Shown: positions 24,346-52,619 of the stretch, piece after piece
Layout: every line of letters begins with the position of its first letter
Numbering within the stretch: position 1 is the first letter of the stretch
Origin: Ulota crispa
Taxonomy: Eukaryota > Streptophyta > Bryopsida > Orthotrichales > Orthotrichaceae
NCBI GenBank assembly: GCA_963920765.1
Contig: OY987243.1
Location: 10,292,001 to 10,356,000 of the forward strand
DNA length: 64,000 nt
Direction: 5' to 3'
The notes under the pieces: generated by a model
Seen by the model: only the letters and a program-made list of their open reading frames with translations
Told to the model about the DNA's origin: nothing
Databases searched by the model: none
Position numbers and translations under genes: made by a program

Positions 24346-24369
24346 TACTACAAGGAAAAGGCCTTTTTA

Positions 24370-26230: not shown

Positions 26231-26269
26231 GGTTAGAATTCACATTTGTCTTATTGAAACGACTTGACT

Positions 26270-26560: not shown

Positions 26561-26642
26561 GGGACATATGCAAGTAGAACCTTATTACCATTGGCATCTA
26601 CGTGTAATGTAGTAGGTGCAAACCCCTAAACTTTAAAGCAAA

Positions 26643-27077: not shown

Positions 27078-27239
27078 ATCTTTGGTCTACAATGATAAAA
27101 ACCATGTAATGAGTTTAGGAACTTGGTAGAAAGAGTTCATGCACAACATTCATACAATTTTTAGACCTTTAAGCCATATTAGGCAAGCTCCACAAATACT
27201 TGCAAGACCAAGACAATGAAGTGAACAAGGAGTTTACCA

Positions 27240-30920: not shown

Positions 30921-31147
30921 TTGATGTGATTTCAAAGCTAAGTAAAATGAAAAATGAATTCATGATTTATTGTGCTGAATCTAGGACTCACACTATGACG
31001 GTCAGACTTATCCATACTAAAATCAATATCTTGGGTATGACCCCTAAGACATTGAAGCCACCTATAACAGTTGTCACCCTCAAGTATTCCATCTGCGTCA
31101 ACCTCCACTATATTGTAAAGGTCAATGGCAGTTTCTCGTTGCGCGGC

Positions 31148-31492
31148 TTAGTCCATCTGAGCCTTCAAGGCCCTACCCCTTTGCTCGCGTTGATCTCCTC
31201 CAAGAGGCCGCATGCTTCTTCTCCCAAGCGATGGAATCCTCTGCTGCACTCCATGTTGTTGTAACAATTTTTGTTTTTGCCAAATCTCCAATTGCTTCTG
31301 CAGCAACCGCATGTCAAGGTCCAGGGAATCCTGGTCTTGCAACTCCACCTCCACACGCTCCTCCTTCGGGAAGGGCTTGTCTTGAAACACCCGATTGGCA
31401 ACTGCTGGCTCCACATACCCCAGGCTCTCCATAACGTAGTCAAACTCCTCGCCTACCTCCTTGTCACCCATCTTCTTTGGCGTCTCCTGCAA
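31148..31492 (-). CDS. CACTA accessory protein, 5' block
   Basis: Open block after a candidate acceptor (GTTGCAG, 31493-31499): ETPKKMGDKEVGEEFDYVME, then ERVEVELQDQDSLDLDMRLL and QKQLEIWQKQKLLQQHG. The Gln/Leu-rich stretch predicts a coiled coil. It lies upstream of the Transposase_24-like block on the same strand, separated by the inserted repeat copy 1. No named domain recognised. Confidence 0.45.
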   Translation of the reverse strand: MQETPKKMGDKEVGEEFDYVMESLGYVEPAVANRVFQDKPFPKEERVEVELQDQDSLDLDMRLLQKQLEIWQKQKLLQQHGVQQRIPSLGRRSMRPLGGDQREQRGRALKAQMD

Positions 31493-31619
31493 CGTCCCAC
31501 TTAGAAACTTGGATGACTTCTATACACAAGCCTTTCAAATACAACTCCCTTAATGTGACAAGATATCAAATGGTTTAGAATTTAGACAAAGCAATCCAAC
31601 AAAGTCACTGCAACATGCC

Positions 31620-31820
31620 TAAATAGTGACTATAGGAGGTCAGCGAATGTTTAAGAAACCTAGAGATGTGACTAACCATAGTCCAAAAGTTGGTGGCCAA
31701 AATCAAGCAATGACTACACCAAGTCATATGATTGCCCTTAGAAGTGAACCAATGACTACACCCAGACATATCACTAGCCTAAAAGAATCAATGACTACAC
31801 CAAATCAGGAGAACACCACT
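31620..31820. repeat. Internal GACTA/TAGTC cluster 2
   Basis: GTGACTA, ATGACTACACC and AGTCATATG words upstream of the minus-strand gene's 5' block. Orientation is mostly TGACTACAC. Confidence 0.65.
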
Positions 31821-32753
31821 ATGGCACTAAGTAGTACCATTCACGGAAACCCCATTGTCAACAATGAACATGCCCCCTCCAATAGTCAATTCTCCATGAC
31901 ATCATTGCCAACTTGAAAATTATAGAATCCAGCCCACCCCTGAGCTCCTAGGATTGACCTGCAATACCTTAAACATGAAAACCATGGCGCTGCAAAGCCT
32001 TGCTGAATAGCAGCATCAAAAAAATTCAAAAAAACACCCTCCAATGGCCCCTGTGAGCATCTAGACTCGATGTGCAACATGGATGACATGAACACAAGGC
32101 CAGCAAGCAAAGCCAAAGAAACTAGCTTACATAAAAATTTTAAAAAAAAAGGCCGAATGCCCTTGTGAGCACCTAGGCTCAAGTGCAACACGATGACTTG
32201 AAAACAAGGGCAGCATAGCAAAGCCAAAAAAATTGGCATACATAAAAATAAAAATAAAAAACAACAAATGCCACTATGAGCACCTAGACTTGAGTGCAAC
32301 GTGGATGACTTGAAAACAAGGGCAGCAAGCAAAGCCAAAAATATTGGCATACATAAAAATTTAAAAAAAAAAGCCGAATGCCCTTGTGAGCACCTAGACT
32401 TGTGTGCAACGTGGATGGCTTGAGAACAAAGCCAGCAAGCAAAGCCAGAAATATTGGCATACATAAAAATAAAAATAAAAGACAACAAATGCTCCATGTG
32501 AGCCCTAGGCTTGAGTGCAACATGGATGACTTCAAAACAAGAGCAGCACAGCAAAGCCAAAAAAATTGGGCATACATAAAAATAAAATAAATAGAAATCT
32601 GAATGCTCCATGTGAGCGCAAGGCTTGAGTGCAACACAATGACTTCAAAACAAAGGCAGCATAGGGAAGCCAAAAAAATCGGCATATATAAAAGAATTTA
32701 AAAGAAAAAGATCGAATGCTCCCAGCAAGCACCTAGGCTCAAGTGCAACACCC

Positions 32754-33056
32754 TAAATCCTCAAATCCCAAACTTTTTGCTACTCTTTCTCAAGTAGCAC
32801 CCCATTTCCCTTTAAATATATATGTGACCCTAAAAGGGGTCACCACTGAAAAAGTGTCAATTAATTCCACAAAAATTCCCATGTGACCCTAACCCTACAC
32901 TTACCCTATAGTGCAAGTTTCACTCAAATCCCAAACTTTTAGCTATTCTTCTGAATTAACCCCCCACTTCCCTTGCAAATAAAATCTGATCCCAAAAGGG
33001 GTCACCCTTACAAAAGTGTCAATTAACTCCATAAAAATCCCATGTGACCCTAACCC
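32754..33056. repeat. Two-copy direct repeat inside the satellite array
   Basis: Two copies of about 150-165 bp share CTCAAATCCCAAACTTTT, AAAAGGGGTCACC, AAAGTGTCAATTAA and CCATGTGACCCTAACCCTAC. They interrupt the 111-bp units and share no obvious homology with them. Confidence 0.7.
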
Positions 33057-33913
33057 TACGAGTGCAATACGATGACTTGAGAACAAGGCCAGTACAGCAA
33101 ACCCAAAAAATTGACATACATAAAAATTTGAAAAAAAAAAAGACCGAATACCACTGTGAGCCCTAGGCTCAAGTGCAACATGGATGACTTGAAAACACGG
33201 CTTGCACAGCAAAACCAAAAATATAAGCATACATAAAAATGAAAAAAAAAGAGCCGAATGCCCTTGTGAGCACCTAGACTTGTGTGCAACGTGGATGACT
33301 TGAGAACAAGGCCTGCAAGCAAAGCCAGAGAATTGGGCATACATAAAAATAAAAAAACAAAAATTTGAATGCTCCTAGTGAGCACCTAGGCTTGACGTGC
33401 AACATGGATGACTTGAAAACAAGGCCAGCAAGCAAAGCCAAAAATATTGGCATATATAAAATTTGAAAAAAATAGAGACCGAATGCCCTTGTGAGCCCTA
33501 GGCTCTAGTGCAACATGGATGACTTAAAAACAAGGGCAGCACAGCGAAGCCAAAAATATTGGTATACATAATAATGAAAAAAAAAAAAAAAAAAAAAAAC
33601 TGAACACCCCTACGAGCACCTAGACTCGAGTGCAACATGGATGACTTGAAAACAAGGGCAGCAAGCAAAGCTAGAAAAATTGGCATACATAAAAATAAAA
33701 ATAAAAAGGCCTAATGCCCTTGTGAGCACCAAGACTTGAGTGCAACACAATGACTTGAAAACAAGGGCAACATAGCAAAGCCAGAACTATTGGCATACAT
33801 AAAAATGAAAAAAAAGAAAACAACGACTACTCCTATGAGCACCTAGGCTCTAGTGCAACGTGGATGACTTGAGAACAAGGCCAACAAGCAAAGCCAAAAT
33901 ATTGGCATACATA

Positions 33914-36241
33914 CACTACTAGAAAATTTAGCACAAAATCAACTGAATTTCAAATACAAATTGTTGATCTTTTTTGTTGATTTGGTCAAGTTGATTTGGG
34001 TACTTTTCCACAAGATTTTGTTGATTTTTTGTTAATTTTTGCTTATTTTATGTTGTTCAATTTTAGTTTTTTTTAATAATTTTCATGTTTTTTTTTATGG
34101 AATTTATTACTATTAAAAAACAATTGCAAAAACTTGCCATGCGAGAGCCAGGCGTTGGCCGGCCATGGCACAGCGAGGGCTGCCACCACTAAGGGCTACT
34201 ACCACAAAGGGGCAAAGGTGGGGTTTGAACCCCCCACTTCGTGGTTGGTACTCCACAAGCCCTTTCCACCAATGTTTACCACTTGCACATGTGCATGATG
34301 GAGTTGTGATTCTATTTGTACATTTCATGTGCATGTTTTCAGTAATTTACAAAGTCAGTAGACTTTGGAGGCTATTTTGGCCTATTAAAGGACTTTTCTT
34401 CAAAAAACTTCAAAATTACAAAAAGTTGGTAAATGTATTTTACTTTCACCTCCAACAAATTTTTTTCAGATTTCAATCTTTTAACCAAAAGTCATGAGCA
34501 AAAATCAGAGAAGGTGTTCAAAAATTTTAAAAAAACTATTTATTTCCATCCTTTTTATTTTGTTTATAACTTTTGATTGGAATTCACAAATCTCAAAAGG
34601 ATTGTTGCATGTAAAGGTTGGCTTCATTTTTAAATGTTTTTTAATGCTAATTTTTTTGTAAAAAAAAAACCTTATTTTGTTAAAATAGCCTCCTTAGTTT
34701 GTTAGCGTTAAACAATGTGAAATTGTGAAAAGTTACGGAAATAAAACCTTGCACTTATAAAATCAAAATTCTATAAACTTTTGAATATTTTTGGATATTT
34801 TCCTAAGATTCTAAAAATATTTCATAAGATTTTTACTTTTTAAATTTATTTGGTCAATAAAAGAAGGAAAAATACTAAAAATGCCCTTCAATTCTTTCAA
34901 AATATCAAATTTACTCCTAAAATATTTAAAACATAAAAAGTACTCTTTATATTTTGTAGGAGTATCAATTATACTCCTATTATTTTGGAAAAATATTAAA
35001 AATGCTCTTCTATTTTGAAATGTTTAATATATCCTTGTGTTATTTGAAATGTAAAAATCACCTGTGGTTTTTTTTGTAAGAATGCAAATTATTCTATACA
35101 TTTGGTTATCATATAATACAAAGATATTAATAATCTAAAATAGTGGAGGAGCATTTTTAATAGTTTCCCAATGTATATGATGCTTTTAATCTTTGAGGGA
35201 TATATATGATTTTTTCAAAGAATTGGGGGCATCTTTTATATTTTTTTGTAAAGAAATTGTGGTATTTAAAACCAGAAAATGTAGTACTTTTTATATAAAA
35301 TTTTGTTGAATTAATGAAGTTGTGTCCAAAAGTGTCTAGATCAACACAAAACTGTTGATTTTTTTTTGTTTTGTTGTGTCCAAAAGTGTTCAGATCAACA
35401 AAAAACTATTGATTTTTTGTTGTTTTGGTCATGTTTTTAGTAGCCTTTAAAGGCTACTACTGTTAGACCATACCAAATTGTGAAAAATGAAGAAAAAAGC
35501 CACACTAAAATTCTAAAAGATTCTAATTTTCTTGAAAACTTTTTTTATTTTTCAAGACCTCAAAACATTTTCAAGTAGTCCAAAAAGATTCTAGAAAGAT
35601 TTCAAAAACAACCCAAACTATTATAATAGTTTTTTGTGAAAAAACATTTCAAAATATTTTAATGAATTACCAAAGATTTTAAAACAACTCTAATTGAGTC
35701 TAAGAGATTCTATTTTTATAAAGATTTTGTATTCTTTTAACAAATTTCATAGTTAAAATTTTCAAAATGACTATCAAGGATTCCAAAAAAGGTTCCCAAA
35801 GATTCCAAAAAGATTCCAAAAATATTCTAAAATATTCTAAAAGATTTTGAAAGATTCCAAGAAGATTCTAAAATATTCTCAAAGATTCCAAAAAGATTCT
35901 TAAAGATTCTCAAAGATTTTCAAAGATGATCAAAAATTCTCAAAGATTCTCAAAGATTCCAAAAAGATTCTTAAAGATTCTTAAAGATTCTCAAAGATTC
36001 TCAAAGATTATCAAAAATTCTCAAAGATTCTCAAAGATTTTTACAGATTCTCAAAAGATTTCCAAAAGAATTCACAAAGATTCTAAGTTTTTTGTTGATT
36101 TAGATAATGGTATCCAAATCAATAGAATGTATTTAGTTTTTTACAAAATTATGTTAAATTAGTCAATTAGCGTGGGCAAGTGCCCAAAACAACAAGAGAC
36201 TGTTGATTTTCTGTTGTTTTGGATAGAGTTGTCTACTAGTG
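33914..36241. mobile_element. 2.3-kb non-autonomous CACTA-like element
   Basis: The left end CACTACTAGAAAATT and the inverted right end CACTAGTAGACAAC pair imperfectly. ATA flanks both sides (33911-33913 and 36242-36244) and joins the interrupted satellite unit. Subterminal words such as GTTGATTTTTTGTTGTTTTG recur near both ends. No transposase. The end sequence differs from that of the host CACTA element, so another family moved it. Confidence 0.8.
35760..36090 (+). repeat. AAAGATTCTC-type tandem repeat
   Basis: A run of 8-12 bp units (CAAAGATTCTC, CAAAAAGATTC, TAAAGATTCT) inside the 2.3-kb element. Strand bias is strong. The 78-codon frame across it is low complexity. Confidence 0.85.
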
Positions 36242-37422
36242 ATAAAAGATAAAAATAAAAAAACAACAACTGTTCATGTGAGCCCCAGGCTCGAGTGAAG
36301 CATGATGACTTGAAAACAAGGGCAGCTTAACAAAGCCAGAAATATTGGCATACATAAAAAAATTTAAAAAAAAAGACCGAATGCCCCTACGAGCACCTAG
36401 ACTCGAGTGCAACATGGATGACTTGAAAACAAGGGCAGCAAGCAAAGCTAGAAATATTGGCATACATAAAAATAAAAATAAAAGACAATGATTGCCCTTG
36501 TGAGCCCTAGGCTTGACATACAACACGATGACTTGAGAACAAAGCTAGCAAGTGAAGCCAAAAATATTGGCACACATAAAAATGAAAAAAAGAAGACAAC
36601 AAATGCCCCCATGAGCCCTAGGCTCAACGTGCAACATGGATGACTTGAAAACAAGGCCAGCAACCAAAGCCAGAAATATTGGCATACATAAAAATGAAAA
36701 AAAGAAGACAATGAATGCCCCTGTGAGCACCTAGGCTCGAGTGCAACACGATGACTTGAAAACAAAGGCAGCAGAGCGAACCCAGAAAATTGGGCATACA
36801 TAAAAATAAAAAATAAAAAATCCAAATGCTCCATGTGAGCCCAAGGCTCAAGTGCAACATGATGACTTGAAAACAAGGGCAGCATAGTGAAGCCAGAAAT
36901 ATTGGCATACATAAAAATGAAAAAAAAAAAGACTGAATGCCCCTACAAGCACCTAGACTTGAGTGCAACATGGATGACTTGAAAATAAGGACAACAAGTA
37001 AAGCCGGAAATATTGGAATACATAAAAATTTAAATAAAAAGACAATAGTTGCCCCTGTGAGCCCTAGGCTTGACGTGCAACATAATGACTTGAGAACAAA
37101 GCCAAGAAGTGAAGCTAGAGAATTGGCATACATAAAAAATTTAAAAAAATAAGACAACAAATGCCCTTGTGGGCCCTAGGCTTGACGTGCAACATGGATG
37201 ACTTGAAAACAAGGCCAGCAACCAAAGCCAGAAATATTGGCATACATAAAAATGAAAAAAAAAGATAAACAAATGCCCCTGTGAGCCCTAGGCTCGAGTG
37301 CAGCACGGTGACTTGAAAACAAGGGCAGCACAGCAAAGCCAGAGAATTGGCATACATAAAAATTTAAAAAAAAAAAAAAAAAAAACTCCAGACTCTCCTC
37401 CCCAAGCTTCTCACCAAGACTT

Positions 37423-37990
37423 TTAGGAATGAGGACTACATTTCAAGGCTTCACAAAGATATCCCTTGGAATCAAGTGATAGATGTAGGCATACCTCTCT
37501 TCTTGGTGCACGAGGGTTTTTGTGGACGTTTTGTTGTACTTGGAGCTGGATCCTAGAACTCCTTCGTAGTGGTGGTCCTCCTTCCATCCTGGACGCTTCA
37601 ACTATGTAGTTAGCTAAAGTCACTCTAGTCTTCTGCAAAATGATTGCGGTGATAGTTGGAAGGAAAGCAATTCTTTGGAAGATTTGCACTATGTCACTGT
37701 CATCTAGGTTTGCTACAGCTGTAAATAAAGATTCTAACAAGGAATTCATGGATTGAGAGAGACTAAACCTACACTGTGCAATTGAGAGGACCAGGCCGCT
37801 TTGGCCATTGAGAGCTTCTTCCCAGATGCTCCCCTAATCCGGGCAACCCTAATTCCCTCAACTTCTCTTGGTTACATTGAATGCTGGCGTTGCGAAGTTG
37901 TTTACAGATGAAGGTCTCCCCGAGCTCAGCACGATTAGCCAACTTAAAGACTGTGCACTGCTCCACTAATCTGTCTGAGATAGATTCCAA
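37423..37990 (-). other. Two unrecognised minus-strand open blocks
   Basis: Blocks 37990-37769 (KLANRAELGETFICKQL, NQEKLRELGLPGLGEHLG) and 37749-37423 (LDDSDIVQIFQRIAFLPTIT, PPLRRSSRIQ) have unbiased, protein-like composition but no recognised domain. They sit just past the satellite array within the CACTA element. They may be exons of the minus-strand gene or captured sequence. Confidence 0.3.
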
Positions 37991-38449
37991 CCGGATCTTG
38001 TACTAGTATCGGCTACGAGACCCCTGCTTCACGTGATCGAGCTTCTCTGCTCCATGGCTCAGAGGCTTCGCGGCCTAGAAGTCCAGGTGCTTGCACTAGT
38101 TCCCTGCCCCGTCCAATCATCATGTACCTTGCACACAAATACAAAATTCCAGCACAAAGCCCAATTCAAAATGTTGTCTAAATCAGCAAAGAAATAAAGG
38201 CCAATCCCAATGGGTAGTGAAAATCAGGGTGAAATCCTACCTAAACCTATAAATCTCTGCAATGACTCTCAATTCCCTCACCTCTTTCATAAGCCTCCCC
38301 GTGCTTGGTGACTTCTTTGCAAAAGTCCGGCTTCTCTTGAGGGCACAACTCTGTGTAGCGTGCAACGGCGCAACACGGTTGGGATCGAGAGCTCGGCTCT
38401 CGAGGGTGGCGTTCGAGGAACTCACAGTGGGGTTCATAGTGGCTCAGTG

Positions 38450-40830
38450 CCTGCGTGGCCCACCCCTAGGTGCCTACTCTTTCCCTATTGGTTGCATTCC
38501 ATCTCATTCCATGCCTTCATCTAGTATGAATGCGTCTTGTGCACACTTGAAAAGCCAACCCTGAAGTCTTTGAATTATGGGGCTTATTAACCCCCAAATG
38601 CCTAAAGGTACCAAAAGAGCATGTGTACAAAATTTGGGAGTTAAATTAAACATTGTCAAATCATAATGTTAATTAATTCTTAGATTTTAATACATTTTTG
38701 CAATGAAGGTTTATTTGAGATCCACTAATTTGAGTTGAAAATGAATATGGATTATTGTTTATTCAACATTTTGTAGAATAGTCTCCATTTAAACCTTGAC
38801 TTTACTTGATGCTGGATGATATTGAAAATTGAGCCCTAAATGCACTATAGCTTTGATGGAAATCTACATTGGAAATTACCCGAAGAAATATATTGTAAAA
38901 GTTCTTATAAGAAAAACAAAATGGGCATTTTATGACTTTTGGTTATGACTATCATGAGTCATTTTCAAGTATAAATGACTCTCAATAGTCATAACTTAGA
39001 GTCATGAAACGTCCATTTTGTTGTAGCAAAATAGAAGCCCTAAATTCATTAAAGTTAGACATGTTAGGACTCCAATCATATATTATTGCTAATGACAAAC
39101 TTCTAAGATTTGACAGGAGCAAGTGGCATCAAACACGCTTGGGAGCCCAGTTGGTGCGGGTGGCATTCTAGGGACTTAGTTGCTCCTTACCTGCGTGGCC
39201 CACCCTCCTAGGTGCCCCCTCTTTTCTAGTTTGTTGCGTTCCATGTCATTCAATGCATTAGAAGAAATATGAGCTCTCTAGAAGGCGGCTCTAAACCCCT
39301 CTCAATGGATCTCCTTAATTGTTTTAATTTGTACTTTGGAGTAATAAAAATTCTTTACACCTTATTATGCCTTTGACTACAATCATGGCTTACATTGGCA
39401 TGTCCAATTTTCATTGGGTGTCACAATTACATGTACATATAACCATGGTCCATTTTCTCTATATTAAAATCTTTAACCTAGTACTTGTCACAATAACATT
39501 AGTTATGATTGTGTACAATAGTAGGAGAATAATTAAGAAATTGTGACATAGTACTAGATTACCATTTTCTATTCATAGTTTTTGTGATGTACAATAGGAT
39601 AGTCATAGAAGGTAGAGACACTTCACACACGCTTATAATGTACCCGGCCTAGGCTTAGTAAATGTTAAGAGTGTCAACTCTTAAGGGCCTTCTGGAGAGT
39701 TCATATTTTCTCTAATGGCCTTCATCTAGTTTGAGTGAGTCTTGTCCACACAAGAAAAGCTAACCCCAAAGTCTCCAAATTACAGGCTTTATTAACCCCC
39801 AAATGCCCAAAGGTACCAAAGGTGCATGTATACAAAATTTTGAAGTTGAATTAAACCTAATCAAATCATAATGTATAGCTCTTATTTTCTAATAAAAGTT
39901 AGCATTGAAGGTTATTTTGAGAATCCAAAATTTCAAGTTAAAAGCAAATATGGATTGTAATTGCCTATTCAAATTTTTGTAGAATAGTCTCCACTAGAAG
40001 TTTCAGTTTCTTGATGTTGGAAGATTTTGAAATTGAGCCTTAAATGCTATAGACCTTGGATAGAAACCAACATTGTAACATATTTAAAATATATATAACA
40101 TTGGCTTCTAGAAGCCCTAAAATCATTAAAGTGAGGTTTGCCATGACTGCAAACTCATATTGTCGATAGTGATAGACTTTTGAGATTTGGCTCCTACAAG
40201 TTGTATGGAGGCACGTTGGGGAGCTTAGTTGATGCAAGTGATGTTCCTTGCCTCTGTCTTCTTGTGCATTTGTGCCCCCCTAGGTACAACCTAAATTCAG
40301 ATTGATTGTCTTGTATGCCATATATTCTATGCCTACAATTCTAAGTGCTTCATGTACACCTGTGAAGATGTGACCCTAAACCCTTTGAATTACAAGTTTG
40401 AACACATAATTGCTGAAAGTCATCCAAAGTGGGTGTTTCCCAAAAACTGAAGTTTTGTGAACCTCATGAAAGCATAATTTTCAATCTCAATTTTCAAATA
40501 GAATTTTGCACTGAAGGGTATCTTGAAAGCCTAGAATCTGAGTTTGAAAATGAACCTTAAATATTCTTTTATTGAAAATTTTAGACCATGGTCTGTATGG
40601 CAACCTTAAGTTTTCTAATACTAATTGAAATTGAAATTGAGATTGAAATGCACTATAACTTGGAGAGAAATCCATGTTAGAAATTGGGAATAAAAATTAT
40701 AAAAGTACCTCTTGAAAACCATGAATTGATTAAAGTTAGACATGTCATGAGCTGGAACCTATGTTTTTGCCAATGAAAGACTTCCTAGATTTGACATGTG
40801 AAATGAGGATTAGAATAGGCAAAGTCACCT
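38450..40830. repeat. Three diverged tandem copies of a 0.6-0.8 kb unit
   Basis: CCTGCGTGGCCCACC...TAGGTGCC, ATTAACCCCCAAATGCC and AAAGGTACCAAA recur at about 38460-38620, 39190/39785 and, more decayed, 40260-40500. The units include AAGTTAGACATGT and a poly-purine tract. Non-coding. The middle copy has extra sequence. Confidence 0.65.
38915..39035. mobile_element. Mini element with GACTA words
   Basis: ACAAAATGGGCATTTTATGA on the left is inverted, imperfectly, as TCATGAAACGTCCATTTTGT on the right, followed by TGTAG. The middle carries TTATGACTATCATGAGTCA and AATAGTCATAA. About 120 bp. It looks like a tiny CACTA derivative nested in the big element. Confidence 0.5.
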
Positions 40831-41309
40831 TAGCAATTCTAAGAACTTCTTGTAAAGGGAGTATCATGTTTGAAACAACAAGTCATATTGGTGTGCTTTT
40901 CTTTTCCATGGAATGTGTAACATGCTAAACTACAAAATTTGAAAAAACATGATATTTTTTATGAAACACTTGGTTGTATGATTAGTTTCATGAAAATGCC
41001 TAAAACTGCTGAAGAAGGCTTTGGGCATTTAAGGGTTTAACCAAAGTTGTAGGAGAGGGGTCCAACCTAATGAACCTTGTTAGCATGGAGTGATTGTTCT
41101 CCTAAAACAACGCAATGAATTGAAACCATCTCACAAAGGGGGGTGTCAAACCAATATTTATGTATTATTTGTAAGAGTTCAGGATAAATTTTAAGGAAAC
41201 ACTAGAGCTTTCAATACAAATAACAAATAAAAGAGCCCAACAGTATGCCTTAAATATGTAATGAGACCCATGTTTGTGATATCCTCAAAGAGTGTGAAGA
41301 TATTGCAAT

Positions 41310-41440
41310 ATGACTTTAGCTAGTCATGCGAAATTGTAAATAGTTCATATGTGACTATGTATAGTCAAATGGGTGAAAATAGAATAATAGAGGATTGCAC
41401 ATGGTCAAGATTGACTGCGTGTAGTCACAAACTATTATTG
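41310..41440. repeat. Internal GACTA/TAGTC cluster 3
   Basis: TGACTTTAGCTAGTCATG, GTGACTATGTATAGTC and TTGACTGCGTGTAGTCA lie just upstream of the first transposase exon, in promoter position. Confidence 0.75.
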
Positions 41441-41577
41441 CCACTATCCAGTGTGTCTTGTTGGACACTCTACAAAGTAACATACAACCCCTTCATATTA
41501 GAATTTATTTGCTATAGGTTGTGCCTTACTAACAGTTCCTTTTTTTATAATTGTATGAGAAGGTTTGGGCATCATCA

Positions 41578-41775
41578 ATGGATCATCCCTCCAATGTACT
41601 AGAGGAGGACTTGGAGTTATGGAGAACTGAAGAGGAACAAGCAGATCGCAAAAACCTCCCAAGATACCCTTGTCTTTGCAAGGGGTGCATAGGAGGGATA
41701 ATCCAAGGGCAAAATACTATACGCAAGCACCTTCATGACTATCAACGTGACCCAGTGCTTCAAAAATCCGTTTTG
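41578..41775 (+). CDS. CACTA transposase N-terminal exon (Cys/His motif)
   Basis: ATG 41578 opens MDHPSNVLEEDLELWRTEEE, followed by RYPCLCKGCIGG and QNTIRKHLHDYQRDP. C-x-C-x2-C followed by H-L-x-x-Y resembles the transposase-associated zinc-binding domain at the start of TNP2 proteins (C-P-C-x2-C...R..v..HL). A GTACGT donor follows at 41776. Only about 66 codons. The next open exon on the strand is the SET-like block. Confidence 0.55.
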
Positions 41776-42013
41776 GTACGTGCCACTTCCATGCGTTGCA
41801 TTCATTACTTCTCCATCAGCATTTGTTACCTATGTCTTTATGTCAACTTTGAGTATTGTAGTCTAGATTTGTACATTCTCAAAGACATTTGTATATAGGT
41901 AGCAACTGAGGCAACATTGGATGATTTGCTTAAAGATTGTATTGTTGGACAATGTTCTATCAACCGAGCAACTTAACAAGTCAAGAGTTATAATTGGTGA
42001 ATTGAAAACCTAG

Positions 42014-42470
42014 CTATCTTGACGGGGAATGGGGCCCCTCTTGTATTCCAAGACTAACACCTTTCACGTATTGGAACCGAGAGTGGATAGTGAAAGTATC
42101 TACGTTTCCATTCATGGGGTGGGGTCTCTATATTGTGGGTGCTGCAAAGGCAGAAGAGAAGTTGTTACCATTTGTGGAACGATTGTTGACCCAGTCCGAG
42201 TTTAGGATCATGAAAGCCTTGGATTCACAATTTGTATGCTATGCCATGCAACCTACAGCTAGTGTGTACCAAGACGGGGATGTAGAACATGGCAATGTAG
42301 CTAGATTCAACAATAGTTCCATGGGACATGAAGACATTAGCAATGTCATTTGGAAGTACGCAAAATTTCCAAGGCCTTGGAACACGTCTGAATGGGAATA
42401 CACAATGACCGTAGCATTGCGGGACATTACTAGCGGGGAGGAGCTATTTACACACTACCCTATAAACTGA
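42014..42470 (+). CDS. SET-domain-like exon inside the CACTA element
   Basis: A 151-codon block, open from 42006, with a candidate acceptor CCTAG at 42009-42013. It reads like a whole SET methyltransferase fold: an entry strand (EWIVKVSTFPFMGWGLYIVG) matching the S.IP..G.GLY start, a middle DSQFVCYA, then DGDVEHGNVARFNNSSM at the position of the NxxRFINHSC cofactor-binding motif, and TMTVALRDITSGEELFTHY at the terminal I..GEEL..DYG motif. NHSC is replaced by NSSM and the terminal DY by HY, so activity is doubtful or the variant is divergent. It lies between the transposase's first exon and body and is flanked by GACTA clusters, so it moved with the element. It could be a transposase exon or a separate captured gene. 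Confidence 0.7.
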
Positions 42471-42544
42471 TTAGATGTAGAGGGTTTAGGAAATTATTTG
42501 TGTTTGGAGTTCTTCCCTCTTTGCCTGATAATTTGCAAAAGCCC

Positions 42545-42720
42545 TTGTAGAACATGATTGCAAACAGTCATTGCTTCAACTAAAGAATTGACACATTGTA
42601 GTCACATTTTGAAAAGTATGTGACTACACTCAGTCATATTAAGTGGATAATAAACTCATGTACTAGCCATATTTGCCAAATGACATGATTGACTCTAGTC
42701 ATAACTATGAGTATATTTTC
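42545..42720. repeat. Internal GACTA/TAGTC cluster 4
   Basis: TTGTAGTCACAT, GTGACTACACTCAGTCATAT and ATTGACTCTAGTCATAACTA lie between the SET-like exon and the transposase body. Confidence 0.7.
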
Positions 42721-43027
42721 ACAGAGTTCTTTAAAATGGAAACATTGTGGAGGAGTTGAGGAGAAAGAATGATTTTTTTTTTGTTCTCTATATAGTTTAT
42801 TAAACTTGCATTGACTATTGGATTAAGCAATGATAGATCCAAAATTTCTCAATGATTGTGGTTTCATTGCAAACTTGCACAGTCCTATGGATTATGAAAA
42901 TGCCTATGACTTATGGGTAGTACATAAATGTGTATGTACTATACAAATATGCAAGTGCACCATATTGTCAATGTTCACAATTTTGATATGTGGAACAATC
43001 CTCACCAATGTAATTTTGGATGAATAG

Positions 43028-44261
43028 GTCAGTCTAGAAGCTAGGGATGACGTTGTCAATGGTGTCACCACAGAGGGAATTGAGCTGCATGGCAATTCGG
43101 ATGCAAATGGCGTAGATGAGGTGGACGCAGTATACATGATTGTAGAGTGTTTTCAACAATTTGATAATCTTCCACATTGCGAGGATGATATCAATTGCAA
43201 TGATTCAGAATATGCAATGGAGCTAGAAGATGAGGTAGTGCAAGAGAGCATGGATACAAGTGAGGAGGCCAAAGACGCGGAGGATCTATTCAAACAATCT
43301 AGGATTCCCTTATATGCAGGTTCAAAGTCAAATCGTCTAGTGACCACCCTCTTGCTCTTGAATTGTTTCTCAGTCTTTGGAGTTTCCAATGCATGTGCAA
43401 ACAAATTGCTGAAACTATTGAAAGAGCTACTTCCTAATAACAACACCTTACCTAAATCATATTATGAAGCAATGCGGTATTTGTCCAAACTAGGACTCTC
43501 CTATGTCTCCATCCATTCTTGCAAAAGTGATTGTTGTTTGTTTCGACTGGGGTTGAAGGATGCCGTGGAGTGGCCGGCGTATGGAGAATCTAGATACATC
43601 CTAGACAAGCCTGGACGTCCTAGGAAGGTTCTTCATCATTTCCTACTCATCCCTTGATTGCAACGCATGTATTGGTGCAAGAAATTAGCAGAGTTATGTA
43701 CATGGCATGCGACTCGTACAAAAGAGTGGAGCAACGTGGAGTGCGTGCCAGATTCAATAACTTGGAGGCACATAGATACCATGTACCCATAGTTTGCAGC
43801 AAAGCCAAGAAACATTAGGCTTGGATTGGCATTGGACGGTGTGAATCTATTCTCAAACAAGTCGTTTAGTCACTTGACCTGGCCGTTCATATTATTGAAC
43901 TATAACTTGCCCTCCATGGTTAGTGATAAAGAGGTTCTTTTTGATGTTGTCGCTCATAATCCTAGGGAAGGAAAGCATCACATCTAGCAAAATTGATGTC
44001 TATTTGGCGCCGCTGCTAGAAGAACTAGCAAATCTATGGAAGGGTGTTGAGGCAAAAGACTCGTCCATTGTTGGTTCAAACAAGGACTTCTTAGTTCGAG
44101 TTGTACTCATGTGGTGCATCCACAATTTCCTAGCTTATGGACTAGCATTAGAGCAAGTCACAAAGGGGTACAAAAGTTGCCCAAAGTGCGGGCCTAGCGT
44201 GAAGAGTCAAAGATCTACCGCCCTTGCAAAAAATGTCTATCTAGGACATTGCAGGTACTAG
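43028..44261 (+). pseudogene. CACTA TNP2 transposase, N-terminal half
   Basis: Starts after a TAG acceptor with an acidic leader, then RIPLYAGSKSNRLVTTLLLL and KLLKELLPNNNTLPKSYYEA, LSKLGLSYVSIHSCKSDCCL, PRKVLHHFLLIP, and later EPRN-like KPRNIRLGLALDGVNLFSNK and SKIDVYLAPLLEELANLWKG. This is the canonical order of plant TNP2 (P.Y.GS, LLPEGN.LPKSYYEAK, IHACPNDC, RNVRLGL..DG.NPF, DIDVYLAPL). A TGA replaces the Arg codon after LIP, a TAG lies in MYP*FAAKPRN, and a frameshift precedes 43923. The enzyme cuts element ends in En/Spm, and this copy cannot encode it whole. Confidence 0.88.
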
Positions 44262-44911
44262 TAGAGAGATTACTAGCCCATGTTTTATGGAATACAGTGT
44301 TTAGGAAATAAAGCCCATTGAAGTGAAAGATGAAACTGTTTATGCAATATGTATAGTTACCATAAGATTCATAGAATAACATATATTATAGTATATTCAA
44401 CTCAGAGCATCTAAAAGCATTGGTTAGTATGAGTTAATTTACCCTAATTAAACAGCTTAGAGAAATAAGAGTTGTGGAGATTCAAAGTCTTGCTTGTTGC
44501 TCTTTTATTTAAATTGATTTAAATACATGACCTATAATGGGGAGGTATTTGAAATTGGTCCATAACAATTGCTACTAGGACAATGGTCAAGTATTTTGTA
44601 TGCTTATTAATGAGTGTCATGGATCTTAGCATGTACATTCATAAACCATAGAATGAGGATTTGTTTTTGAAGAATGAGCTGAATAAGAATACATTGGCAA
44701 AATGTATCTCATCTATAATGTAACTCTGCTTAGAAACAAAAGGAGTGAAGTTACAAAAAAGCATATGGTAATGAAAATATGCTTTGCATAGCTGCTTGTA
44801 TTAGAATACAGTGACATCAAATGTAGTATGTCAAATCTGCAGCCACTGATGAAATTCCTTATTCACTAAGTTGTACACTTTGAACTTAGAATGATTGATC
44901 TCCCTGAGCAG

Positions 44912-45110
44912 GTACCTTAGAAGAGCGCGTCCGTACTGGGGTATGAGATTGGATTTTGATGGAACCATGGAAGCAGAGTTACCTCCGAAGGCCATGACAG
45001 GCGCTAACATCAAGAAGTATGCACTACAGAGGAGCAATTGGTTTAGGGCATCAGTCCTAAACAAACCAAATGCACCAAGTGACCCAATTCATACCATCGG
45101 TGTGAAATGA
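44912..45110 (+). pseudogene. CACTA TNP2 transposase, linker exon
   Basis: After an acceptor (GAGCAG) it reads YLRRARPYWGMRLDFDGTME and PPKAMTGANIKKYAL, matching the TNP2 segment after the zinc-binding block (RFLP..H.YRR....FNG..E.R..P..LTG.EI). It ends at TGA 45108. A CCTTCTACCG mini-repeat follows at 45118-45162. Confidence 0.7.
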
Positions 45111-45439
45111 TTGACAGCCTTCTACCGCCTTCTATCGCCTTCTACCGCCTTCCATATTGAGAGGTAATTTTTGACCATATTGCTGAAGATAACAATGTAT
45201 AATAAGTGCACAATACACCTTTCGCTTGTACATGTCATCATCAATAAATAGTTCATTTGTGGCACATGGAGAGGTACAGTAACTGTTATGCATCCACAAA
45301 AGTGTCACCATCAATGAGGAAGTAGAGAACTTGGCTGACTAGTGAAAATCATAAAATTATAGATTACTACTGCCACAAGTGTCAACAATATATGCAAGTG
45401 GCTAGAACCAGTAGCATTGTTGGTGGGAATGACTGGAGG

Positions 45440-45560
45440 ATCACTCAGTGACTTGCCGTAGTCATATCCCTAAAGATAATGACTACCAAGAGTTGTAGTT
45501 TTGGATACCATGACTGCAAGGAGTATGGATGATATGACTACCTAAATAACTGTACATCAT
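45440..45560. repeat. Internal GACTA/TAGTC cluster 5
   Basis: AATGACTGG, CTTGCCGTAGTCATA, AATGACTACC and ATATGACTACC sit between the linker exon and the DUF4218 block. Confidence 0.55.
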
Positions 45561-45784
45561 CCACAATGACCCTCAACCCTAAACCCATAAGCAATGATAG
45601 TGCTCATTGTAAAGGATAATTTACTTTAGAATTGTAAGTTACATGGATGACTGAACAATGTTTATGCATAGGACAATTGTCTAAGGTTTGAATTTAAAAA
45701 TAGCGTCTTCTTGGATACGTTGCATGAACCTTACTGCATAATGTCTTTGAGATTGTACCACGCGGTGGTACTAATGAGACATAG

Positions 45785-46700
45785 TTGCCTCAACAGGGTC
45801 TTTTGATTAGACATGTGCTGGACTCCATGCATTGCAAGAAGAACTTGTGTGAGAATATATTGAAGACCATTTGGAGATCCAAGGACACTTTGAAGGTTCA
45901 TTTGGATATGCAAGAGGCTAGAATTAGGCCTCATCTTCACCCAGTGCCGGGGAGGGCACCTGGATTGATGGTGTTACCTACTGCACCATACGTACTTACT
46001 AAGGCCGAGAAGAATACTTTCCTTGGTATCTTGCAAACCTTGAAGACGCCAACAAACTACATTGGACAATTGACAAAGAGAGTCACCATGGATGGGGAGT
46101 TAAGGGGCCTGAAGTCTCATGACCATCACATTCTACTGCAGCAAATATTGCCACTATGCATGAGGACGTTGCTGAATGGAGATGTGAGATTGGTGATTAT
46201 GAAAGTGAGCCTCATATTTGTGCAACTATGCGCAAAATCTGTAGACCCTTCATTGATGCCAGCGCTGTTGGAGGAGACCGGTGAAGCGGTGTGTATGTTG
46301 GAGAAAGTATTTCCACTAGCGCTCTTTGACATCATGACGCACTTTTCAATCCACTTGGTACAGCAATTGGATATATGTGGACCGGTTCACACGAGGTGGA
46401 TGTACCCTATGGAACAATATTTGAAAGTGCTGAAAGGCTATGTGAAACAACAAGCCTAACCCAAAGGTTCCATGGCGTGTGGATATACTACAGATGAGGC
46501 ATTGGGGTTTTGCACGGAGTACATGCAAAACTGCAGCGCTAAAGAATGGAGAATTTAGGATGACAAAGAAGAGCTTGCAATGAGTAGCAAGAGGCCAGAA
46601 GGAAACGGGCGGCGTGTAATCCTAAACCCATCAGTGCGAGATTGGATCCACAAGTTTGTGCTGGAGAACGCAGAGCCTCTCCAACCGTTTAGGGAGTGAG
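45785..46700 (+). pseudogene. CACTA TNP2 transposase, DUF4218 block
   Basis: An open stretch of 224 codons holds RHVLDSMHCKKNLCENILKT (RH.LDvMHieKNvcdnl), then LTKAEKNTFLGILQTLKTPT, GLKSHDHHILLQQILPLCMR, FPLALFDIMTHFSIHLVQQL and CGPVHTRWMYPMEQYLKVLK GYVKQ. This is the classic DUF4218 signature. A TAA follows KQQA, but homologous residues go on (SMACGYTTDEALGFCTEYMQ). Downstream, at about 46625, RDWIHKFVLENAEPLQPFRE marks the region that precedes DUF4216. Confidence 0.92.
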
Positions 46701-46859
46701 TGATTTCATGCCTGCATGTGTTTACAAACACTTACAATTATATCCAAGTCTATATTGCACCTTCAAAGTACCCTAGAATGATGAAGCCCTTATATACCTA
46801 AATCCTAAATTTTTGTATTTGAGAACTTCTAGTAGGGCATTCACTACATGCAGTAAAGG

Positions 46860-46985
46860 ATAAACCCAGACTATGACTAGTGGTAGTCATACTACTGCCT
46901 GTAGTCATCACCCTAGTCAGAGGGTCCAATTTTTCTATTCATGACTATCCCTTTATGACTGCACGTAGTCATATGCCGAGTAATC
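46860..46985. repeat. Internal GACTA/TAGTC cluster 6
   Basis: ACTATGACTAGTGGTAGTCATA, split by a C-rich spacer from ATGACTATCC and ATGACTGCACGTAGTCATAT. It separates the DUF4218 and DUF4216 blocks. Confidence 0.7.
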
Positions 46986-47447
46986 CCCCCTTCATTTGTT
47001 TTCCACTTCAATGGAAATAGCTCCTTTGAAGTCAAGTTTGAATGGAATTGTCACTGTTAGTAATAGGAGTAAACCTTTTCAGAATGTCAATGCAAAACAG
47101 ACATACTAACAAAAGTTAGTGAATGGAATGTTAGTGAGTACGTGCAAGACATGGCAACACAAGGAATAGCAAGAACGCAACATCGGCGAGAGAACCAGCG
47201 GAGGGCCAAACCACATCCTATAGTTATGGAGGAAGTCACGTTTAGATCATGGCTGGCTCAAGTAGTGAAGTTGAAGATATAAGCACATAAAAAAGTGCAC
47301 GTGGATGTCCAGGCACTAATGAAGCCAGCGTCCATGTATGTGAAGTCATATTGCGCCATGTACGCATATGAAAACCACATCCAAATGTGATCTGCAGAGG
47401 CGGACCTGAGTACGTGTGATAGCGGCATAGCAGCCACTTTTTCTCAG

Positions 47448-47771
47448 TTGTGCCGATCAAGCGGCAGGGACCAGAATATGAGAACTACAGATTTGGAGTA
47501 CATTGAGTGGGTAGACCAGATTTTGGGTGTTCACTATGGCCATTTTCAAATCAACGTGTTAGACTGCTTGTGGGTGAAATTGAACACTCAAGGCCCTAAT
47601 GCAACAATGAAGAAGGACGCGTATGGGTTTACCAAAGTGAGGTTTGAGCGTCTCATTTCCCACTCTGCAGATTCATTTGCATTTTCCTTGCATGCATGTC
47701 AGGTTTATTTTTGGACGGCTTGGGCAATGCGGGGTGGAAGGTGGATTTGCATACAAAGCCTAGAGGCGTGA
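47448..47771 (+). pseudogene. CACTA TNP2 transposase, DUF4216 block
   Basis: IEWVDQILGVHYGHFQINVL, DCLWVKLNTQGPNATMKKDA, YGFTKVRFERLI and FAFSLHACQVYF follow the DUF4216 pattern (Y.G.i.dIlel.Y......v.LF.c.WvD......G.t.vn......d.FilA.QA.QVFY). After QVYF the frame shifts: the continuation LDGLGNAGWKVDLHTKPRG is in another frame. The acidic ORF at 51279 might be the distal C-terminus, displaced by the repeat at 47925. Confidence 0.85.
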
Positions 47772-47924
47772 GAATAGGGGTGGCAAAGAATGATAGCCAA
47801 GAAGTTTGAGACTTGAGCATTGGTGATGGCAGTGCCCTTGGAAGGTGTGAGTTCCAAAATCAGCACCAGAAATCCTGAAATTCTTTTTTGTTTTACTTAG
47901 CTGTGAAATTGCAATAATATGAGT

Positions 47925-50600
47925 GGAATAGCCACTTATGTTACTTTAGATTAGTTAGACCAAATGGTTAGCGCTATGCCATTTACCCTACTCCATTTGG
48001 TAAATCATTAGGAAAGATTTAGTGAGATTTAGTGGTTTTTAGTCAATCTGAGTGACAAACTCACTAGGGGCTTGGGATCCCCTCCAAAAGTCCCCACTAG
48101 CCTAATTAGAGAGGGTTAGTTTAGGTTTTGCTACTATGGCCAATGGCCACGTCACCTAGCTCACATTTCCCATTATTAGATCAATTGGTGTGTCTATACC
48201 CAAGGTGTCCAATACCTTTTGCTCTATAGAGAGCGTGATTCTAAGCGGTCAACCCTACAATGCTACTAGCCAACCCCGGTGAAAGGAGGTTGACAAATGG
48301 CAGTAAAATGCCACCAAAATTCATGGAAGAGTTTCCCAAGGATTTACAACAATCTCCCAAGTTTCAAGGCGTTTCGATAGCAGCAAAGCCTCGAACAACG
48401 ACATCCATTCAGTTTTGAGAAGGCGCACAACATCCAATTTCAAGATATCATCTATTTGGAGCCCAATTGACAAAAGCAAAGAGTGTTTCCCAGCTTCCTT
48501 GACAACATTGGAAGACCTCAAGAAGTCAATTTCTTATTTTGGGATGAATTCTTAATTTTGGATTTTTCATCCATCCACCCATAATCCTTGATTCAAGTTT
48601 CCCAATGCCTTGTAGCTTGGAATTGGAAGTGTGAACAAGCAAAACTGGCTATTTTGGGTCCAAGGAGTCCAATGCCACCATCTATTTGTTGTTTGGAGCT
48701 ACGCTCCAAAAGTTATGGTGAATTTATCCAGATTTCATTCATTTTGGATTTTTCTTAGATTTTAGGTAGATTTTAAGGGATCTATGGATCTCTCTAGAGA
48801 GAGGGCCGAGGTGTCCTCCCCCAAATGTATAAAAGGAGGCCCACCTCCTCCCAAACCATCATTCTTATCACTTCCTTTTTGTCCCTTGACCCTCTTGTCA
48901 CTTGTCATGACATTTTTTCTCATGCTAGCTCATTTGTTCTAGGTCTTGGGTTCCCTAGCACTTGTAACCATTTTTCGTAAGTCTTAGAGCACTTTCCCTT
49001 GTTTAGATCTCTCTCTCTCTCTTGGCCATCACTTGTGTCTTGCCAAGTTCCTAGCCCCCTTATCCCTTGCTTTTGCTGGAGCCCTTTCCCATGCACTTAG
49101 TAGAACATAGCCCTTGTGTTGGTCATACTTAACCCCTAGGAAGTTGGATTACAATTGGCAATGTTGCTCTTCCACACTTCTTAGAAGTTCCATTTGTGTT
49201 CAAGTCAATTAGTAGTTAGAATAGGAACCCTTACCAGAAACTCAGCTTACCAATCACTATCAAAACTCCAGCACTAGCACAAGCCCTTGCAGTAGCTATT
49301 TGAGAATCCTTTCAGCTCAGCCTTGGTTGGCTAGCTCTCTCAATTCCCTTAGTAACTCCCCGCTAAGCCACCTTGCTCAATGATTCTTGCAGCTGCAAGC
49401 CTAGCCTCGCTCCTCAATTCTTTCAGCTTGTGGCATCATCGACTACCACCTCCGGCCATCAAGCTTCCAGCCGTAAGGTCTCTTGCATTCCTTGACCCTA
49501 GCCTTGAATTCCATCAATCTAGCCGTGAGCTCCTATGGGTTCCTTGGCCCTAGCATCAATTTCTCTCAGTCCAAGCTGTGATCCCCTAGCCCTCTAGCCT
49601 CAGATTCTCTCACTCCACCAAGAGCTCCTAGCTTTAGCTCAAATTCTCTCAGTCCAATTGTGAGCTCTCAGCTTCTAAGCCTCAATTCTCTCGGTCCAAG
49701 CTGTGACCTCCAACTCCTGGCCTCGAATTCTCTCATTCCAAGCTGTAATCCCCCAGCTTCTAGCCTCAGATTCTCTTAGTCCACCGAGAGCTCCCAGCTC
49801 TAGCTCAAATTCTCTCAATCCAAGTTGTAATCCCCCAGCTCCTAGCCCCAAATTCTCTCAGCCAGCCGTGAGCTCCCCCTTTAGCCTCAAACTCTCTCAA
49901 TCCACGTAAGCTCCCAGCTCTCTAGCTCAAAGTCTCTCAATTCAACCGTGAGCTCTCAATCTTTAGCCTCAGATTCTCTCAGTCCACTGAGAGCTCCCAG
50001 CTCTCTAGCTCAAATTCTCTCAGTCTAGCCGTGAGCTACCAGCCTCTAAGCCTCAATTCTCTTAGTCTACCAAGAGCTCCCAGCTCTTGAGCTCAAATTC
50101 TCTCAATCTAGCCGTGAGCCATCAGCCTCTAAGCCTCAATTCTCTTAGTCTAGCCATGAGCTCCTAGCTTCTAAGCCTCGATTCTCTAAGTCAACCTTGA
50201 GCTTCCCCTCTCTAGCTTCACATTCTCTCAGTCAACTGTGATCTCCCAGCCTCTAGCCTTGAAGTCCCATCAGTCAACCTTGAACTATCCACATTCCCCC
50301 GCCGTGAGTTCCCCACACTTAGACCGCAGCGCTCCGCTCGGCGAAGACGGCCGTAGGGCGTCCCTTGCCCCGACACCCAGACCTCGGCCCGCAGTACCCG
50401 GACCTTGGTCTCAGGGCGTTGCTCATTGCCTTTAGAGCTTTGCTTATGCCTCAGGACTTTGCTTGTTGCCTCAGAGCATCGCTTGTTGCCTTAGAGCTTC
50501 GCTCGTGACCTCCAGGGCTTCCTCGTGGCCCCTAGGCCCTTACCCTTGACCCCCTTTTTGGCAATTGGGTCCAAGCCCATAAGCCTAGCCTCAACTAAAA
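47925..50600 (+). repeat. Promoter-bearing dispersed repeat, inverted copy 2
   Basis: It starts AGTGGAATAGCCACTTATGT, shared (inverted) with the outer end of copy 1 at 30918. It has a good TATA box (GTATAAAAGGAGG, about 48828). The downstream half is a CT-rich minisatellite. Both copies encode no protein: the matching 66-codon frames at 30177 and 48321 only reflect shared sequence. A fossil, possibly a solo LTR of an unassigned family. The right boundary is approximate. Confidence 0.55.
49450..50240. repeat. CT-rich minisatellite (CTCAAATTCTCTCAGTCCA)
   Basis: Units of about 45-60 bp contain TCAAATTCTCTCAGTCCA, GTGAGCTCCCAGCTCTAGC and CTTCTAAGCCTC. Unit order and length vary. It is the inverse counterpart of the array at 28450-29400. 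Confidence 0.8.
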
Positions 50601-51278
50601 TTAGCTAAAAGACAAGGAGGTAAGAAGTGTTAATTTTTCCACCTAACATTTTTTGCTCTCTTGGGAATTATTTAAGAATGTTTGGCACTCCCTAGGCTAT
50701 CTTGAACCACAATTAATTAGCCTTTAAATTTAGTTGCTTGCACATAGTGGCCACCTTGGAATTGCAAACTTGTCATACTTTGGTTGGTGGTAAGCTAATG
50801 AGTCAATCAGTGTTGTCAAGCACTATTACGGCCATTGAGAGGAAGTGGAATTCATTCCTAACACTCAGTTCCATTCATGCACCTAACATTGTGATTATTC
50901 GTTACAAACTTGGTGTGTGAGCCGAGCCACTAGCGGATATATCTCCCACAACCCATTAGTACGTTCCAATTGTTTTTCAATATTGAGAAGCAGCCACCTC
51001 CACCCTAAGCACCCAGAAGATGGAGGCTATCAACAATGAGGCTGTAGGGTACGTGCGTCCCCACAACAAAGTAGGATTACTTTTGCTCCTCATTCCTATA
51101 GGCCATATAGAACCAATACTTGACCCATTTAGGAAGTTACTTTGTTTGCTCATCATTGTATGTTGGATAACCATTAGTAAAGATCCATTGCTTGGAAGGC
51201 ATCGTTAGTTGGAAATCTGCAACCAAGCGCACCCTCTTGCTGTTATAGCTCATTTCCCATTTTTGTTAGAACCCAGTT

Positions 51279-51551
51279 GTGCTTGCGCTTACTTCTCGAG
51301 GGGGAGGTTTGAGCACTCACAAAAAGACAACGCAAGAGGAAGAGATGCATCAACCATGCACTAGTGCAGACCCTTTGGCAGAAGGCAGGGTCTTGACAAG
51401 CGAGGAAGTGAGAGCAAAGATGGCAACTGCAGTAGATACTGAAGAAGAGGATGAAGAAATGGGAGCCAAAGAAGGAGGGGGGGACGCAAGCAATTTTGAC
51501 GAAGGAGACAACAAAGCGCAAGAAGAGGATGTTGACAACAACTATGAATAA
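51279..51551 (+). other. Acidic open frame near CACTA right end
   Basis: Ninety codons starting at a GTG, with DTEEEDEEMGAKEGGGD and DEGDNKAQEEDVDNN. Only the ATG at 51345 would be a normal start. Possible C-terminal exon of the transposase gene, left beyond the inserted repeat. Function unknown. Confidence 0.35.
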
Positions 51552-52369
51552 GCCATTCACCAATGACATGGCACATCGAGATGATTTACATGGGCTTGCA
51601 ACCATATTGCCATAGCAAGAACATGGTTACAACCCCATGTAACACTTCACATCAAATTAGGAACATACACATACTTAGTTCTATTAGGTACATCCGGTTT
51701 TCTTCCCCCATTGGGTTTCTAGATTTTTTTCCCAGAAAGGGGTTTTTTCACACATGTGTACGTTGATCCATTCCCCATTACTAAACCCAACAACTTGGGC
51801 CGCACCTAGTTTGCTAAACCTCAAACTCTCTTTTGTAGAAAGAACATAGTGTTGAGATGAGCTCCACAAGATGTATGTAATGGACCTTGGAACTTACAGA
51901 TATTACATAGCATACCAGCATTATGAGTAGTAAGAATTAATTTATGACAAGTAGAGAGAAGAAAGTAAAATGTTGTAAATGGAAATCAATTAAATGTCAA
52001 TATTCCATAAGGTGCAACCCATAGATGACAAGCAAGCCTTAAATATAAACTCATGTGAATAACCATATAAAAAACTCCATATACCCTAAGTCCCTAAATC
52101 CTGAGAAGATAAGACCCCTGAACCCTGAACTTGATGAAATTTAAAAACACCAAACCTCTAACCCTTGAACACCCCTAAACCTCACATATTTTCAATGTGT
52201 ACAATACCCAAACCCCTAAATCAAACATGCACATAATGTTGTCCCTAAACCAAACGACCCCTAAACCCCCACCCTCACCCCCTAAAACCGCCCACTCCAA
52301 ACCCAATAAATAAATGAAAGCCCCTGAATTACAAGGTCCCTAAACCTAATGTGGCTTGGACCCTTGTTA

Positions 52370-52600
52370 TATGACTAGAGGCAGTCATGTAGTCAAGAAA
52401 CCTAGTCATAACCACTCACTAAATCCTGAGAACTTGTTCCCAAGGACGTTCCCCTTGAGGTCCACAAAAAATCTTAGTCACATTAACAATGTTATGAGTA
52501 GAGCATGACTATGACTAGGAGGCCTCAACCACATGACTGATGGGTTGCCCATTTTAGTGAAATGTGACTATATAGTCATAGTGCCCTAGTCATAAAAAGC
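52370..52600. repeat. Right subterminal GACTA/TAGTC repeat zone
   Basis: ATGACTAGAGGCAGTCATGT, TAGTCATAACCACTC, GCATGACTATGACTAGGAGG and GTGACTATATAGTCATAG lead to the right terminus at 52616. They match the left zone in word content. Confidence 0.85.
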
Positions 52601-52619
52601 CCTTTTCCTTGTAGTGGAA

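Follow-up and report, generated by a model that had tools for sequence, protein, structure and literature searches.

The window, a stretch of 64,000 nucleotides from the genome of Ulota crispa, contains a decayed CACTA element that carries an exon for a SET domain between a first exon with a zinc-binding motif and the body of the transposase gene (Table 1). The element has CACTACAAGGAAAAGG ends; the inverted ends read TACTACAAGGAAAAGGCC... on the left and CACTACAAGGAAAAGGGC... on the right and GAA flanks both sides. These ends were located by aligning the window element with another copy, found on contig C6, that is collinear with it in five blocks of 85–92% DNA identity. Two nested insertions, 27560–30992 and 47840–51320, are clear as they are missing from the C6 copy. 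A third, 33914–36241, which splits a minisatellite, is only probable. The minisatellite (32013–33913 and 36242–37390, unit ∼110 bp) is also found in the C6 copy and is broken in the window, where the interrupting stretch opens with CACTACTAG at 33914 and is perhaps another CACTA element. The divergent ORFs of the left half (25466–31519, reverse strand) are ∼85% conserved in the C6 copy and perhaps constitute a TnpA-like gene.

The first-pass annotation had called the element a CACTA, and its ends, its target-site duplication and its transposase domains confirm that it is a true one. Seven pieces of the window were scanned with Pfam; the transposase found was Transposase_21, and no Harbinger family appeared. 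The element resembles the CACTA (En/Spm) elements of plants in being long and in having the same ends, a 3-bp duplication and Transposase_21, DUF4218 and DUF4216-like parts, but it differs from them in having an extra SET exon with its own stop. Elsewhere in the window there are a TEDC1-like centriole protein (256–1053, reverse strand, E 1.6e-5 but under the cut-off), a Med26/TFIIS-type domain (12842–13471, forward strand) and a reverse transcriptase fragment (57773–58138, forward strand, under the cut-off). Contig C1 has TTTAGGG arrays of the plant type near both ends, and the centriole-protein match would suit a plant whose sperm swim.

Table 1. Features of the CACTA element and its flanks, in window coordinates.
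Feature	Position	Strand	Basis or remark
Left target-site duplication GAA	24343..24345		Flank of element
CACTA element, decayed copy, 28,271 bp	24346..52616	+ (strand of transposase gene)	Inverted ends, GAA duplication, C6 alignment
Left terminal inverted repeat, first base T for C	24346..24377	+	End alignment
ORF of second, divergent gene	25466..26239	-	No Pfam family
ORF of divergent gene	26643..27086	-	No family at credible score
ORF of divergent gene	31148..31519	-	No family at credible score
Palindrome cluster before exon 1	41310..41428		ATGACTACNNNTAGTCAT matches
Exon 1, 66 codons, CxCxxC...H motif, Transpos_assoc-like; GT donor 41776, phase 0	41578..41775	+	Motif, position
SET exon (inferred), acceptor AG at 41898 to conserved stop	41899..42470	+	5' part frame-shifted in window copy
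Pfam SET domain	42117..42458	+	Profile match
Palindrome cluster between SET stop and transposase exon	42554..42702		ATGACTACNNNTAGTCAT matches
Transposase exon (inferred), phase-0 acceptor at 43027	43028..43657	+	ORF and junction projection
Transposase_21 (PF02992)	43899..44261	+	Pfam E 5e-28
DUF4218 (PF13960)	45785..46459	+	Pfam E 4.7e-21
DUF4216-like (PF13952)	47391..47771	+	E 1.1e-5, 26.3 bits, under cut-off 30.6
Right terminal inverted repeat CACTACAAGGAAAAGGGC...	52585..52616	-	End alignment
Right target-site duplication GAA	52617..52619		Flank of element

The ORF at 42006–42470 on the forward strand has 154 open codons, in line with the 150 or so first reported, and the SET-like domain that had been proposed there was recovered in a check against the Pfam profile PF00856 (E 1.6e-6, 28.9 bits, curated cut-off 22.4), residues 38–151 of the ORF covering profile positions 1–104 of 105. 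All seven related copies scanned, chosen for the absence of a stop, also matched PF00856. A chance or false match is ruled out by the significant score together with the related genomic copies. The 5' part of the SET exon is out of frame in the window relative to the other copies. The placement of SET between the zinc-binding exon and the transposase body agrees with the same-strand order given by the Pfam scan. Clusters of a GACTA motif had also been reported on both sides of SET. The palindrome ATGACTACNNNTAGTCAT, counted with up to 3 mismatches, gave 70 strand-matches in the window where 1.7 would be expected, which bears this out. On one strand, 35 palindromes fall in the 28.3-kb element as against 2 in the other 35.7 kb, and none of these 35 overlaps the eleven coding blocks listed for the element (5.1 of 28.3 kb, one boundary guessed).

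SET copies in the genome and beyond

When the same genome was searched with the SET protein, 68 matches resulted and were merged into 56 places; several pairs look like later duplicates and the places are not 56 independent insertions. By identity to the window SET, they form group A, with subgroups A1 and A2 (∼54–83%), and group B (∼36–49%). Stops are present in most copies. The ends of the elements were sought with an end pattern of 31 bases, allowing 3 mismatches at most; the genome contained 72 matches, and none to the reversed control. When these ends were paired, 12 SET places fell between them; ten with ends 16.7–28.3 kb apart were counted and two with ends 38 and 63 kb apart were left out of the count. 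Two outcomes had been set beforehand as refuting the first-pass proposal, the lack of a significant SET match and the absence of SET from other copies, and neither was observed. With 56 SET places, ten of them between matching inverted ends, confinement of SET to the window copy is ruled out. Target-site duplications were sampled in the ten end-bracketed copies and in the C6 copy, for which the ends came from the alignment. The 3-bp flanks are identical in seven of the 11 (GAA, TCT, AAA, TGA, TAC, GCA, AGT), the chance expectation being 1 in 64; they are one base off in two (TAA/TGA, GCG/GTG) and do not match in two (CCA/TAA and, for C6, ATT/TAG). No ends of group B elements were found with the 31-base pattern.

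The SET exon keeps its position relative to the transposase. For the best 39 of 150 transposase rows, SET lies 0.9–3.6 kb upstream on the same strand in 35, with SET 20–25 kb away in two more and no SET in the remaining two; for the best 55 of the 150 rows it lies upstream on the same strand in 39. The count of neighbours took 57 of the 150 rows, these being the first 55 and two hand-picked lower ones, one of which is near a SET place. The spacing between SET and transposase is tight, mostly 1432–1450 bp in A1 and ∼1702–1761 bp in many others. Among the matches listed, 23 of 150 PF02992 hits have a SET of the family within 8 kb, indicating that most CACTA elements of this genome are without SET.

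Four end pairs 13.0–13.2 kb apart enclose no SET (C4:473097-486102, C8:13650694-13663739, C10:1954040-1967078 and C11:4260954-4274153). Target-site duplications were exact in both of the two that were checked. Palindromes are dense in one of the four, the C8 element, with 20 in ∼13.2 kb and the duplication TCT/TCT. The C8 element has only 0.3–0.4 kb at each end in common with the window element, contains no ORF of more than 129 codons and represents a non-autonomous family. The palindrome is nearly absent from group B (1 in 8.0 kb and 3 in 7.4 kb), and gapped palindromes were not enriched there either, with 41 found versus 40–58 in shuffles.

Across the genome, Pfam SET gave 78 hits, of which 51 are outside the CACTA-SET family, and these show no link to CACTA, as only two of the 51 lie within 20 kb of listed PF02992 hits (at 10 and 15 kb). 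Many of these other hits, for instance L004, L007 and L008, are partial, and the ones inspected look like host SUVR-type sequences, some of which break off at RFINHR. The small contig C11 (6.3 Mb) has many SET and transposase hits and is possibly a sex chromosome or an otherwise repeat-rich one.

No protein relatives were found by searching with the window SET sequence alone. With an alignment of seven copies as query, 76 metagenomic proteins were recovered at E values of 1e-3 or lower. Their identity to the 31 genomic copies is at most 66% over 60 or more residues, so they probably come from other species. Metagenomic protein P0077 has an N-terminal piece like exon 1 (14 of 29 residues identical) followed by the SET part. 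Ten short metagenomic SET proteins, P0075 and P0078–P0086, 51–61% identical to P0075, form a more distant sister group, and P0075 also has GNVAGFINSS. No relative was found in a viral contig collection.

Gene structure, selection and shared inheritance

Against the Transpos_assoc profile PF13963, exon 1 of the window gave E 0.017 and 15.7 bits, and all four copies scanned (15.7–22.2 bits) were under the cut-off of 27.7. The name Transpos_assoc-like therefore rests on position, on the motif and on a resemblance to exon 1 of those CACTA elements in this genome that lack SET. The C, C, C and H of the zinc motif are retained in 29, 30, 28 and 28 of 30 copies. Exon 1 is found upstream of SET, on the same strand and within 6 kb, at 53 of the 56 places with a median gap of 235 bp; in the comparison with SET-less elements, which used a hand-picked mix of transposase places, 15 gaps measured 0.7–1.7 kb.

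In 22 of 31 copies the projected junction has a GT donor for exon 1; the donor is one base off in six and reads AT in three. In 14 of 21 group A copies a phase-0 AG precedes the aligned SET start by 108 bases, and in seven of nine group B copies it does so by 129. At the other end, SET is directly followed by a stop in 26 of 30 copies, be it TGA, TAA or TAG, and this conserved stop marks SET as the end of a protein. The phase-0 acceptor of the transposase exon is at the projected junction in only nine of 22 rows; it is changed in others and many rows are unalignable there. As these three exons all join in phase 0, exon 1 could skip SET and the gene could give two products. In maize En/Spm, one transcript yields alternative products.

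Substitution rates were calculated for 28 of the 31 SET copies (L011, L030 and L032 were excluded), and the pairs are not independent. For SET, the median dN/dS between A1 and A2 is 0.14 (84 pairs; mean dS 1.5, near saturation; pN/pS 0.30), and for a piece of the transposase it is 0.13 (24 pairs, 14 of them without a defined dS). These values indicate that SET is under purifying selection between the subfamilies. Within subgroups the dN/dS of SET is higher (A1 0.50, A2 0.36), which is expected because the copies decay.

In a set of 17 copies, distances in SET parallel those in the transposase (Mantel r 0.897, p 1e-4), as they also do within A1 (r 0.83). The agreement is absent within A2 (r -0.89, 6 pairs) and B (r 0.13), indicating common inheritance of the groups but not of every copy. 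In a transposase tree of 24 sequences, a single branch (support 99/94) splits 20 SET-bearing rows from four SET-less rows, the latter being an outgroup selected by the authors. At the level of sequence, then, SET is shown to be a fixed, selected part of one CACTA lineage, inherited together with the transposase.

The SET core and the proposed role of the protein

In a profile search of solved structures using the SET domain, ASH1L was best at only E 3e-4 and was followed by H3K4 and other histone methyltransferases. The domain is thus a SET domain without close ties to any known class. Core SET motifs are common to it and to the SET domains of the ASH1L, SET2, MLL and EZH2 type, the profile matches being weak. 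Unlike these, the CACTA SET protein is short, has NSS for NHS and has neither a pre-SET nor a post-SET domain.

The core residues were compared in an alignment of 35 rows, seven from the Ulota crispa genome and 28 of the 76 metagenomic proteins. The first-pass annotation gave the NHSC motif of the window copy as NSSM. This reading is correct but is not peculiar to the window copy, since S occupies the H position in all 34 ungapped rows. The N and S of the motif are kept and the C is replaced; the missing cysteine would fit the missing post-SET domain. The R preceding F of the SET core is G in 31 of 35 rows. Three host SET domains compared retain the H of NHSC. The GxG motif is present, with G in 33 and 34 of the 35 rows, the final tyrosine is Y in all 33 ungapped rows, and the N of NHS and the E of the core are near-invariant. 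Because the whole family lacks the NHSC histidine and cysteine, catalysis by its SET domain is uncertain.

Transposon-borne SET genes are already known. The HarbingerS and MuDR families of the oomycete Phytophthora carry SET histone methyltransferase genes (Kojima and Jurka 2014, cited in PMC12730594). Like the CACTA lineage these are DNA transposons with a SET gene, but they belong to other transposase superfamilies and hosts; in the CACTA lineage the transposase is Transposase_21 and SET is joined to a transposase-type exon. The passages of PMC12730594 on these families name no CACTA case of a transposon SET. No SET in a CACTA was found in open-access full text, and the words SET, histone and methyltransferase are absent from the main text of a 2026 review of plant gene capture (PMC13317346). 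What is new here is the CACTA superfamily and the design of the gene. Fungal DNA transposons including EnSpm/CACTA relatives are described as carrying TET/JBP dioxygenases (PMC12730594, in part), which is likewise a case of a chromatin- or DNA-modifying enzyme in several DNA transposon lineages, with DNA oxidation there and a SET domain here.

The link between a conserved SET and a first exon of transposase type suggests that this transposon encodes a protein controlling the chromatin around it. Our main reading, to which we give a probability of roughly 60%, is that the element makes a protein with the zinc motif and SET, perhaps via alternative splicing, that acts on the element's own chromatin; the chromatin role is a best guess. 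Splicing of exon 1 to the SET exon would give a protein of ∼255 residues with the zinc module, SET and its own stop. Joining exon 1 past SET would give a transposase product from the same gene. The zinc module would bring SET to the element's own DNA, perhaps to the dense palindromes outside the coding blocks, and SET would there methylate histones or occupy chromatin, opposing silencing in the manner of VANC for VANDAL elements. VANC proteins bind short motifs in noncoding tandem repeats of Arabidopsis VANDAL elements (PMC10398659). The likeness is one of arrangement only: both kinds of element encode a protein of their own and have short motifs clustered outside coding sequence. VANDALs are Mu-like with no SET mentioned in the passages on VANC, and binding and loss of silencing have been demonstrated for VANC whereas the CACTA SET is known from sequence. 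In its most specific form the proposal is a self-targeting chromatin writer, where exon 1 is shared by splicing to transposase or to SET, the palindromes are marked against silencing and non-autonomous elements profit in trans. This form is speculative and, taken whole, rather unlikely.

The strongest alternative is that SET has lost its methylating activity and is retained for binding, for example to decoy or partner the host's silencing enzymes or to assist the transposase as a cofactor. The replacement of the NHSC histidine and of the preceding R, with the histidine kept in the three host domains, agrees with this, but the near-complete conservation of GxG, of the N of NHS, of E and of the last Y exceeds the needs of a pure scaffold. 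Furthermore, PRDM-type SET domains lack NHSC and yet some are active. Some SET proteins without activity are described as still regulating chromatin (PMC12886896). We consider a dead enzyme a tenable minority view. It is improbable that SET is active on a non-histone substrate such as the element's transposase or another protein. In its favour, the transposase is encoded next to SET and the overall distance structure is common to both genes (Mantel r 0.90, p 1e-4, 17 copies), but the weak best profile matches are histone methyltransferases, as they would be for any SET.

Gene capture by CACTA elements is well known (PMC13317346, in part), and SET could be a fragment of a host gene captured by one CACTA in Pack-CACTA style and useless to the element, as the stops in most copies might imply. 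Against this, SET is common to two groups whose SET proteins are only ∼40–49% identical and occupies a constant place at constant spacing, its stop is conserved, it is under purifying selection, and the elements carry transposase. Nor do they have the make-up of Pack-CACTAs, for the transposase lies beside SET and no close host SET was present among the eight best SET hits inspected. A useless passenger is very improbable. Lastly, SET lies between exon 1 and the transposase exon with matching phases and could in principle be an internal transposase domain read through from exon 1 into the transposase body, but the stop of varying codon in 26 of 30 copies makes this scarcely credible.

Returning to the main reading, transposons are usually viewed as targets of histone methylation; here a SET gene is an integral, selected part of a CACTA lineage, and a large plant-type DNA transposon family retains a SET gene of its own. 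The metagenomic relatives suggest that the SET module reaches beyond one species. If the self-targeting writer were true, it would have converged on the strategy of VANC, using an enzyme where VANC uses a binding protein. If inactive, SET would be a natural decoy against host silencing. If active, it would provide a small SET protein that comes with its own natural module for DNA targeting, and would offer a direct way to ask how a mobile element rewrites its own chromatin.
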